From Sphingomonas hengshuiensis (GTDB taxonomy: Bacteria; Pseudomonadota; Alphaproteobacteria; Sphingomonadales; Sphingomonadaceae): DNA of 64,000 nucleotides. Below the pieces are notes generated by a model. The model was not told where the DNA came from. It did not search any database and saw only the letters and a program-made list of their open reading frames with translations. The DNA lies in contig NZ_CP010836.1 of the NCBI RefSeq assembly GCF_000935025.1, forward strand, positions 4,340,001 to 4,404,000. Direction: 5' to 3'. Position 1 is the stretch's first letter. Each line of letters opens with the position of its first letter. Made by a program: the position numbers and the translations under genes. This document shows positions 32,452-64,000 of the stretch, piece by piece.

Positions 32452-35422
<2,971 letters not shown>

Positions 35423-61327: not shown

Positions 61328-61920
61328 GCGGTCAGCACTCCACGCACGCGCAGATAATCGAGCAACGGCAGCATCGGCAGTCCCAATATCGTGAAATGGC
61401 TTCCCTCGATGCGGCTGAACAATTGCACCCCCGGACCCTCCATCCGGTAACAGCCGACACAGCCCGCAATCGCCGGCCATTCGGCGTCGAGATAGCCGTC
61501 GATGAACGAGTCCGACAGCGTCCGGACATGCATTCGCGCGCGATCGACATGCCGCCACACCGCGCGACCGCCTTCGGAAATCACCGCCGCGCTGAACAAG
61601 TCATGGTGCCCGCCCGACATCCGCCGCAGATGCTCGCGCGCCTCGTCGCGGCTCGTGGGCTTGTCGAGCAGGCTGCCATCGTCGAGCGCGACGACCGAAT
61701 CGCACCCCAGCACCAATGCGGTCGGATGCATCCCCGACAGCTTGCGCGACTTCAGTTCAGCGAGCGCATCGGACAGGTCGCGCGGGGTGATTCCCCCGGC
61801 GATCAGCGAGTCCTTCGCCGACTCCTCGTCGACCAGCGCCGCCGCGGCTTCATGCGGCACGCCCGCTGCCGACAGCATCGCCCGGCGCGATGCGCTTTGC
61901 GAGGCGAGAACCAACCTCAT
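61324..61920 (-). CDS. maf: Maf-family nucleoside triphosphate pyrophosphatase
   Basis: A 198-residue Maf protein. It begins MRLVLASQSASRRAMLSAAG with the conserved SASRRxxL motif and carries LGCDSVVALDDGSLLDKPTSRDEAREHLRRMSG, the nucleotide pocket. It hydrolyses non-canonical NTPs such as dTTP/UTP or m7GTP. ATG overlaps the PPSR stop (ATGA). Confidence 0.9.
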   Translation of the reverse strand: MRLVLASQSASRRAMLSAAGVPHEAAAALVDEESAKDSLIAGGITPRDLSDALAELKSRKLSGMHPTALVLGCDSVVALDDGSLLDKPTSRDEAREHLRRMSGGHHDLFSAAVISEGGRAVWRHVDRARMHVRTLSDSFIDGYLDAEWPAIAGCVGCYRMEGPGVQLFSRIEGSHFTILGLPMLPLLDYLRVRGVLTA

Positions 61921-62738
61921 GCGTCGCGCGTCCGCAGCGTGCGCTCGTTGCACAGCTGGATGATCGCCGCCGCGGTCTCCTCGATCGAGCGGCGCGTTAC
62001 GTCGATCACCGGCCAGCCATTGTCGGCGAACATCCGCCGGGCAAAGGCGATCTCGCGCTGGACCGACTCCTGGTCGACATAATCGGTCTCGGGGCTCTGG
62101 TTGAGCGACAAGAGCCGGTTGCGCCGGATCTGGACGAGCCGGTCGGCGCTGGTGGTCAGCCCGACGATCAGCGGGTTTTTCAGCGTGTACAATTCGGGTG
62201 GCGGCGGCGATTCGACGACGATCGGGATGTTCGCCGCCTTGTATCCGCGATTGGCGAGATAGATCGAGGTCGGCGTCTTGGACGAGCGCGAGACCCCCGC
62301 CAGCACGATATCGGCTTCCTCCCAATCCTCGGCACCGATGCCGTCGTCATGCGCGATCGTGAACTGAATCGCATCGACGCGCGCGAAATAAGCGGCGTCG
62401 AGGCTATGCTGGCGCCCCGGCCGCGCCTTCGCTTCCTGCCCCAGCAGCCCCGACAGCGCGTGGCTCACCGGATCGAGCGGCGCGATCGCGGGCAGGCCCA
62501 TGGCGCGGCACCGCGTCTCAAGCGTGCGGCGGATGGTGCTGTTGACCAAGGTGAAGATCACCAGCCCCGGATTCTGCGCAATCTCCTGGAGGATGCGCTC
62601 CAGATGCGCCTCGGAGCGGACCATCGGCCAGAAATGCCGCAGCGTCTCGACATCGTCGAACTGCGCCAGCGCAGCCTTGGCGATGTTTTCCAGCGTCTCT
62701 CCGGTGGAATCGGAGAGGAGGTGGAGATGGAGCCGCAC
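61917..62738 (-). CDS. Pyruvate, phosphate dikinase regulatory protein (DUF299, RP001-type)
   Basis: A 273-residue bifunctional kinase/pyrophosphorylase-like protein. The characteristic HLLSDSTGETLENIAKAALAQF at the start and the P-loop-like GVSRSSKTPTSIYLANRGYKAAN are present. PPSR phosphorylates and dephosphorylates PPDK. The GTG start at MRLHLHLLSDS is favoured, since upstream codons are GC-rich and not family-like, but no Shine-Dalgarno is visible. This is the gene that borders the chromosomal origin in many alphaproteobacteria. Confidence 0.87.
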   Translation of the reverse strand: MRLHLHLLSDSTGETLENIAKAALAQFDDVETLRHFWPMVRSEAHLERILQEIAQNPGLVIFTLVNSTIRRTLETRCRAMGLPAIAPLDPVSHALSGLLGQEAKARPGRQHSLDAAYFARVDAIQFTIAHDDGIGAEDWEEADIVLAGVSRSSKTPTSIYLANRGYKAANIPIVVESPPPPELYTLKNPLIVGLTTSADRLVQIRRNRLLSLNQSPETDYVDQESVQREIAFARRMFADNGWPVIDVTRRSIEETAAAIIQLCNERTLRTRDA

Positions 62739-63043
62739 GGCTATGGGGATGGTTCTGTGGAAAACATTGCGGACAGGCGCTAGCGCAACCCGGGCGCGGG
62801 GCCAAGCTTGTGCGAACCGCGGACTCGGTTGGTGAGTCGTCCACAGCGGCATCCCCAATCGGTGCGCAGTGCCCACAGCCTGTGGAAATCGGGGATGACC
62901 GACTCGAATCCGCGGCGTTCTGCGGGCAAGCGGGAGTCAAGTTGTTGGCAGAATGCGGAGGAGCGCATAAACCCCGGGTTCCACGCGCCAACAGACTCCA
63001 ACAATCCTTAGATTCTTCTTTCTATAGAAGTAGGACCCGCGCC
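62739..63043. other. Probable chromosomal replication origin (oriC) between PPSR and hemE
   Basis: A 305-base non-coding gap lies in the position occupied by the origin in Caulobacter and relatives (between hemE and the RP001/DUF299 gene). It contains a near-perfect DnaA box TGTGGAAAA at 62756-62764, weaker boxes TGTGGAAAT (62881-62889) and TCGTCCACA (62837-62845), a CCACAG-C-CTGTGG palindrome (62873-62885), and an AT-rich tract at about 63000-63030 next to hemE that could melt first. Confidence 0.65.
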
Positions 63044-64000
63044 CTGACTGACTCGACTCCCAAGCCGTTGCTCGCAGCCCTTCGCGGCGAACGCCAGCCG
63101 GTCCCCCCGATCTGGCTGATGCGCCAGGCCGGCCGCTATCTCCCCGAATATCGCGCATTGCGGGCCGAGAAGGGCGGATTCCTGGCCCTCGCGCTCGATC
63201 CCGACGCCGCGGCGGAGATCACGCTCCAGCCGATCCGCCGGTTCGGGATGGACGGCGCGATCCTGTTCTCCGACATATTGATGGTGCCCTGGGCGCTGGG
63301 GCAGGAATTATGGTTCGAGGCGGGGGAGGGGCCGCGGCTCGCGCCGACGATCGACGGGCGCGACGCGCTCGATACGCTCGGGCCCGTGGACCCGGCCAAG
63401 CTCCAGCCGATTTACGACACCGTTGCGCGGGTCGCAGCGGCACTGCCGCCCGCGACGACGTTCCTGGGTTTTGCGGGATCGCCCTGGACGGTCGCGACCT
63501 ATATGATCGCAGGCGCAGGGTCGAAGGACCAGGGCAAGGCGCGAGAACTGGCCTATAGCGATCCGGTGACGATGCAGGCGCTGGTCGACCGCATCGTCGA
63601 CCTGACCGTCGACTATCTGGCATTGCAGATCGCATCCGGGGTCGAGGCGGTCCAGCTGTTCGACAGCTGGGCGGGCAGCCTGTCGCCGCGCCAGTTCGAA
63701 CAATGGGTGATCGCGCCCAATGCCGCGATCGTCGCACGGCTGCACGAACGCTGCCCGGGGACGCCGGTGATCGGCTTTCCGAAGGGCGCGGGGGCGAAGC
63801 TGGTCGACTATGTCGCCGGCGTGCGGCCCGATGCGGTCGGGCTCGACGAGACGGTGGACCCGGCCTGGGCCGATGCCGTGCTGCCGGCGGGGTTGCCGGT
63901 GCAGGGTAATCTCGATCCGCTGGCGCTGATGGCCGGGGGAACCGCGCTAGACGACGGAATCGACCGCATCCTGTCGGCGTTCGCCGATCGCCCGCATGTC
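63044..64000 (+). CDS. hemE: Uroporphyrinogen decarboxylase, N-terminal part (gene runs past the window)
   Basis: At least 319 residues of HemE, truncated by the window end. The signature LMRQAGRYLPEYR begins near residue 25, and the active-site Asp is in FSDILMVPWALG. It decarboxylates uroporphyrinogen III to coproporphyrinogen III in haem synthesis. No ATG or GTG fits the conserved N-terminus (TDSTPKPLLAALRGERQ). A CTG at 63044 does, with AGTAGGA eight bases upstream. A TTG at 63068 is an alternative but lacks a ribosome-binding site. Its 5' side is the probable oriC. Confidence 0.85.
   Translation, partial: MTDSTPKPLLAALRGERQPVPPIWLMRQAGRYLPEYRALRAEKGGFLALALDPDAAAEITLQPIRRFGMDGAILFSDILMVPWALGQELWFEAGEGPRLAPTIDGRDALDTLGPVDPAKLQPIYDTVARVAAALPPATTFLGFAGSPWTVATYMIAGAGSKDQGKARELAYSDPVTMQALVDRIVDLTVDYLALQIASGVEAVQLFDSWAGSLSPRQFEQWVIAPNAAIVARLHERCPGTPVIGFPKGAGAKLVDYVAGVRPDAVGLDETVDPAWADAVLPAGLPVQGNLDPLALMAGGTALDDGIDRILSAFADRPHV

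Follow-up and report, generated by a model that had tools for sequence, protein, structure and literature searches.

At the right-hand end of the window, as we call the whole 64,000-nucleotide stretch analyzed here (chromosome bases 4,340,001 to 4,404,000), the PPSR (RP001/COG1806) gene and hemE diverge from a gap at 4.4027 Mb of the chromosome, which is a single contig of 5.19 Mb in a genome with one further contig. The limits of this gap given in an earlier note on the sequence turned out to be exact, with PPSR starting at a GTG codon on the minus strand and hemE starting immediately to the right of the gap (Table 1). By hemE, the closest named relatives are Sphingomonas species (72 to 74% identity over the best segments).

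We then determined how widely this arrangement is kept. PPSR lies divergently beside hemE in 117 of 139 hemE loci (30 from the genus, 29 from the family, and 80 named), with a median gap of 314 bp, and 22 loci have no divergent PPSR. Leaving out loci of the latter kind gave 106 sphingomonad gaps, the one studied here included; removal of 14 near-identical gaps left 92 distinct ones, and 82 distinct gaps of 270 to 360 bp were aligned, those outside that range being dropped.

A CTG codon (63044 to 63046) is the probable start of the hemE gene in the window. Between 17 and 45 codons before the MRQAG motif of its product, the gene has this CTG plus one TTG only, the latter at codon 17 and within the conserved KPLL motif. 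CTG is also the apparent start at loci L049, L056 to L058, L061, L066, L071, and L130, and 16 of the 106 sphingomonad loci show a CTG and no ATG, GTG, or TTG in the same interval.

TABLE 1 Features of the hemE-PPSR gap and its surroundings, with positions counted from the first base of the window
Feature	Position	Strand	Basis
PPSR (RP001/COG1806) gene, GTG start	61917..62738	-	NF003742 PRK05339, E 1.3e-99
Probable oriC gap, PPSR/RP001 to hemE	62739..63043		Gene boundaries; divergent pair conserved in relatives
DnaA-box-like TTTTCCACA, 1 mismatch	62756..62764	-	TGTGGA at this column in 68/82 aligned gaps
Conserved CTAGCG block, lying between the first and second DnaA cores	62780..62785	+	One column in 32/82 gaps, no other column
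GANTC cluster, 9 sites (62822, 62834, 62901, 62906, 62934, 62994, 63011, 63050, 63055)	62822..63059		Counts, shuffles, window scan
DnaA-box-like TCGTCCACA, 2 mismatches	62837..62845	+	TCCACA column in 33/82 aligned gaps
Weak DnaA-box-like GTGCCCACA, 3 mismatches, left arm of inverted pair	62869..62877	+	CCACAG core at 62873; TCCACA column 62872 in 24/82
CCACAG-C-CTGTGG inverted pair of DnaA cores	62873..62885		Sequence, core positions
DnaA-box-like ATTTCCACA, 2 mismatches, right arm of inverted pair	62881..62889	-	TGTGGA column in 40/82
Conserved GTCAA..TTGGCA block	62936..62950	+	GTCAA 54/82, TTGGCA 53/82, one column each
AT-rich 40-mer, least stable in the window jointly with that at 62993; proposed unwinding element	62994..63033		Nearest-neighbour stacking energies
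hemE (uroporphyrinogen decarboxylase), cut by the window end, probable CTG start	63044..64000	+	TIGR01464, E 3.3e-102
parS-like site (1 mismatch), at -28.4 kb from hemE	34677..34692 (G000:C1:4374677-4374692)		Genome motif search

DnaA-box-like sites and conserved blocks in the gap

The elements that the earlier note had listed for the gap, namely, three DnaA-box-like 9-mers (one with a single mismatch), a CCACAG/CTGTGG palindrome, and an AT-rich tract, were all found. The palindrome is an inverted repeat with a one-base spacer, and the tract is real, two overlapping 40-mers sharing the rank of least stable in the whole window. In all, the gap holds four CCACAG/CTGTGG cores, a number reached by none of 2,000 dinucleotide shuffles of the gap, whereas its number of boxes differing from TTATCCACA in no more than 2 positions was matched by 14 of the 2,000; the core count is therefore the stronger statistic. 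A perfect TTATCCACA box is absent from the gap, all 11 copies in the genome lying elsewhere. Among the 30 genus gaps, 14 carry one to four perfect boxes, and the gap studied here belongs to the 16 without; the DnaA-box set of this species is degenerate. The boxes at 62756 and 62881 are the ones whose TGTGGA columns recur in related genomes (Table 1), in line with the conservation that had been proposed as a check.

Other parts of the gap are conserved as well. We know of no protein that binds the CTAGCG block. The GTCAA..TTGGCA block is possibly the -35 region of the hemE promoter, and together with a conserved TAA.CCCCG block near 62968 in the 82-gap alignment, it may constitute that promoter.

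Location of the probable chromosomal origin

The GC skew had been expected to change sign at the gap. The region was supported to within about 75 kb, but not the exact place: the cumulative skew on the contiguous stretch had its minimum at 4.330 Mb, roughly 73 kb off, and a second local minimum at 4.404 Mb. In 20-kb samples, the skew was mostly positive up to 1.5 Mb, mostly negative from 1.6 to 3.5 Mb, and weak or mixed from 3.6 to 4.75 Mb, with a clear change near 1.6 Mb. Copies of the KOPS-like motif GGGNAGGG were predominantly forward on the arc that runs from about 4.40 Mb across zero to 1.6 Mb, and predominantly reverse between about 1.9 and 4.1 Mb; their polarity switches near 4.2 to 4.4 Mb and 1.6 to 1.75 Mb, opposite points of the 5.19-Mb chromosome. 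Polarity and skew samples thus place the origin near 4.2 to 4.4 Mb and the terminus near 1.6 to 1.75 Mb, half a chromosome apart.

At a finer scale, the best polarity split was at 4.335 Mb, with 56 of 78 motifs agreeing, compared with 54 at 4.390 Mb. Eight reverse motifs form a run between 4.441 and 4.466 Mb, on the arm expected to be forward, and the motifs of the left arm within 40 kb are mixed (4 forward and 5 reverse). In five relatives, the expected left/right reversal at hemE within 40 kb was clear in two (G010 and G021), the other three having too few motifs or none. Given the weak skew at the gap, the optima at 4.330 and 4.335 Mb, and the contrary motif run, strand asymmetry supports the region and not the base.

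The genome has only three parS-like sites (up to 1 mismatch), at -28.4, +3.8, and +8.5 kb from hemE. Such sites were present in 59 of the 61 genus members searched, this genome included, and among the matches listed (30 of the 61 genomes, all 30 with sites near hemE), 74 of 75 are no more than 42 kb from hemE, with 69 at 30 kb or less and 47 at 10 kb or less.

Could the gap hold nothing but divergent promoters and chance DnaA-like sites, with replication starting elsewhere, for example, near dnaA? The lack of a perfect DnaA box and the 73 kb between the gap and the skew minimum would favor this, but parS, core conservation, and synteny all point to the gap, and both flanks of dnaA (3.066 Mb) carry KOPS-like motifs in reverse orientation, with a skew near zero to negative. 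We regard an origin elsewhere as very improbable. The place near dnaA itself was rejected; dnaA lies 1.34 Mb from the gap, and the polarity switch is absent around it. This distance agrees with PMC8116508 (partial text), according to which Sphingomonadales have not retained dnaA close to the origin.

The earlier proposal of a probable chromosomal origin is thus borne out by gene position, core statistics, the unstable tract, parS, conserved cores, synteny, and the regional polarity switch. With its divergent hemE/PPSR flanks, several (degenerate) DnaA boxes, AT-rich segment, and nearby parS, the gap is very probably a chromosomal oriC of the hemE-RP001 type, as known from Caulobacter, in a Sphingomonas-like alphaproteobacterium; on these sequence data, we consider its identity as the origin close to certain. 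DnaA would bind to the degenerate boxes with CCACAG cores, above all the leftmost one and the central inverted pair, after which the AT-rich segment beside hemE would unwind and forks would depart both ways; the parS sites within 28.4 kb would then serve to move the new origins apart.

Compared with the Caulobacter origin Cori, the gap shares the flanking hemE-RP001/COG1806 genes, DnaA-type boxes, and an AT-rich stretch (PMC1914354, partial text) but differs in lacking both a CtrA site (TTAA-N7-TTAA, up to 1 mismatch) and the IHF site (WATCAN5WTR, searched in the consensus form only). Among the 106 sphingomonad gaps, CtrA sites at this threshold were found in 11 and were absent from 95, and the IHF consensus occurs in 1. 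Gating of this origin by CtrA was rejected on the basis of the missing sites. Their lack bars the Caulobacter subtype and not the wider hemE-RP001 type, because predicted origins without CtrA sites are described in the available part of PMC1914354.

GANTC sites in and around the origin

A dense cluster of GANTC, the CcrM site, extends through the gap; neither it nor the probable CTG start of hemE had been mentioned in the earlier note. Seven sites lie in the gap and two abutting ones in the first codons of hemE, making nine in 238 bp. Shuffles of the gap contained at most five GANTC, and none of 2,000 reached seven. Elsewhere on the chromosome, 1.08 Mb of sampled sequence had 0.53 sites per 304 bp, and the maximum in a 300-bp window was five (21,390 sampled windows at 50-bp steps); within the 64-kb window, the gap is the sole place with at least six in 300 bp. 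Its density of about 23 sites per kb is about ten times the 2.17 per kb of non-coding DNA (23 kb of bases outside any open reading frame of 100 codons).

The enrichment recurred in the relatives. The 30 genus gaps, the one studied here included, have 178 GANTC against 34.6 expected from composition, the 28 family gaps have 167 against 32.6, and the 48 named sphingomonad gaps have 204 against 56.2; seven palindromes of the same composition, used as controls, reached 0.40 to 1.41, 0.28 to 1.69, and 0.32 to 1.90 times expectation, respectively. The 92 distinct sphingomonad gaps together contain 442 GANTC where 107.2 are expected, and 57 of these gaps have at least four. Outside the sphingomonads, 11 gaps showed a weak excess (29 against 16.9). 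The cluster is real and conserved in number in sphingomonad relatives. The top count among the 106 sphingomonad gaps was 18 sites in 331 bp, in the family relative L102.

Averaged over the 106 loci, GANTC is densest in the bin 200 to 100 bp before hemE, at 2.53 per 100 bp, and falls to 0.04 to 0.41 per 100 bp over the next several hundred bases on each side, with single bins of up to 0.64 per 100 bp further into the PPSR side. In the 82 aligned gaps, 266 of 396 sites, which occupy 93 columns in all, stand at columns common to less than one-fifth of the rows, the best-kept site being that at 62906 (58 rows). The number of sites is thus kept while their positions turn over, unlike those of the DnaA cores. 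Abutting GANTC pairs, considered as a possible conserved module, occur in only 12 of the 92 distinct gaps, and no phasing of the sites was seen.

Beyond the gap, GANTC is also more frequent in a broad zone. In all six genomes compared, its raw density near the origin (about 80 kb) was 1.30 to 1.84 times that of distant samples, whereas the 42 control ratios (seven motifs in six genomes) ranged between 0.66 and 1.24. The ratio of observed to expected GANTC was 0.21 to 0.38 far from the origin and 0.36 to 0.64 near it in all six. The near zone ran from -63 to +21 kb in the genome studied here and about 40 kb to each side in the five relatives, each of which is represented by small samples of 80 kb near and 80 kb far. 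For the genome studied here, the far set comprised 37 of 55 stretches; those left out were L019, L041 (partly masked), L040 (a flank, assigned to the near zone), and 15 others. The ratio of 1.84 belongs to this genome (window positions 1 to 64000 plus L040, set against far samples from that chromosome), and the sign was the same in the five relatives.

The origin position itself is textbook. In literature judged by title and the start of the abstract, we identified no report of a GANTC cluster at a sphingomonad origin or of a GANTC-rich zone around one.

Possible roles of the GANTC cluster

The genome encodes CcrM (375 aa, at C1:443 kb), whose best solved relative is CcrMI (6pbd; E value of 4.4e-162) and which scores 605 bits against the NCBIfam model of Caulobacter CcrM, under the cut-off of 830. 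A cognate methylase, putatively an orphan one, is thus at hand. GcrA is encoded as well and is a candidate reader of half-methylated sites that would delay re-initiation.

We then asked whether the GANTC excess at other alphaproteobacterial origins goes with the methylase. From 142 genomes, 20 without and 40 with a RAMA match were hand-picked by hemE score, completeness, and contig size; a divergent PPSR was present in 8 and 34 of them, respectively, and stretch L242 was shortened to 318 bases. The 34 gaps from genomes with a RAMA domain had 103 GANTC against 58.7 expected (1.75-fold), and the eight from genomes without a detected one, an absence that may also reflect incomplete assemblies, had 19 against 12.1 (1.6-fold). 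With the excess about equal in both groups, dependence on the presence of CcrM is not shown. Nor is a simple trade-off with CtrA, since the excess and the number of CtrA sites were uncorrelated in 53 other alphaproteobacterial gaps (Spearman coefficient of -0.08, P = 0.59).

One reading of the cluster is that it serves transcription, through cell-cycle tuning of the two divergent promoters (hemE and PPSR) by CcrM and GcrA, and that it lies at the origin merely because these promoters do. GcrA is encoded, the densest 100 bp lies 200 to 100 bp before hemE, and GANTC is reported to be richer in intergenic DNA of alphaproteobacteria (PMC8116508 and PMC8725594, partial texts); for Ensifer, genome-wide avoidance of GANTC and an intergenic excess of about twofold are given (PMC8725594, partial text). 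Against this, there are up to 18 sites in one relative's gap and about tenfold the density of other non-coding DNA in the gap studied here, whose sites are spread from 62822 to hemE; in comparison, the 300 bp upstream of ctrA carry one to five or six GANTC in Sphingomonadales and Caulobacterales (PMC8116508, partial text). A role in transcription is a serious possibility, though one that we would place short of probable.

Alternatively, the enrichment could be passive and functionless, a genome-wide avoidance being relaxed near the origin. The weaker avoidance near the origin in six of six genomes and the turnover of most sites favor this reading. Relaxation would, however, bring the gaps to the expectation from composition, yet the three sphingomonad sets lie 3.6- to 5.1-fold above it, and the seven control palindromes reach only 0.28- to 1.90-fold in the same gaps. 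We consider passive enrichment unlikely.

Finally, methylation of the GANTC sites may have a role in initiation. Origin activity, or hemE transcription through the origin, would then depend on whether the sites are fully or half methylated once replication has passed, and an origin packed with CcrM sites may help limit chromosome copying to once per cycle. Such a role is plausible, but a result from Caulobacter and the near-equal GANTC excess with and without a RAMA domain go against it, and we rate it as less likely than not. The origins of Caulobacter and its close relatives contain several GANTC motifs, and in Caulobacter initiation is unchanged by the loss of CcrM, overexpression of which leads to extra chromosomes (PMC3973325, partial text); "several" there compares with nine in 238 bp here. 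In Agrobacterium, CcrM affects ori2, which three GANTC overlap, and not ori1 (PMC11514494, partial text).

Two other systems bear likeness to this arrangement. The E. coli oriC, with Dam, GATC, and SeqA, shares with it an orphan methylase (a putative one here) whose sites cluster in the origin but differs in motif and enzyme, and for CcrM the effect on initiation in Caulobacter was negative (PMC3973325, partial text). Clusters of orphan-methylase motifs at putative origins, conserved within a clade, were described by Blow et al. in 2016 (PMC4752239); the four motifs named in the available part of that paper are GATC, TTAA, CTCGAG, and CTAG (CATG in its text), and GANTC is not among them.

The Caulobacter origin is controlled by CtrA, and a sphingomonad is therefore a better test of CcrM control than Caulobacter. 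CtrA can be dispensable in Sphingomonas melonis (PMC8116508, partial text). It is conceivable, although we would not wager on it, that in sphingomonads the control of initiation has moved from CtrA to methylation, the cluster of CcrM sites in oriC, lying within the GANTC-rich zone of about 80 kb, keeping new origins half-methylated and inactive until the late-cycle action of CcrM. A role of GANTC in initiation timing is put forward as a testable hypothesis, and the cluster and zone offer a handle on whether CcrM methylation controls initiation at any main alphaproteobacterial chromosomal origin. A shift from CtrA to methylation, if real, would give the alphaproteobacteria their own, independently arisen equivalent of sequestration by Dam/SeqA.
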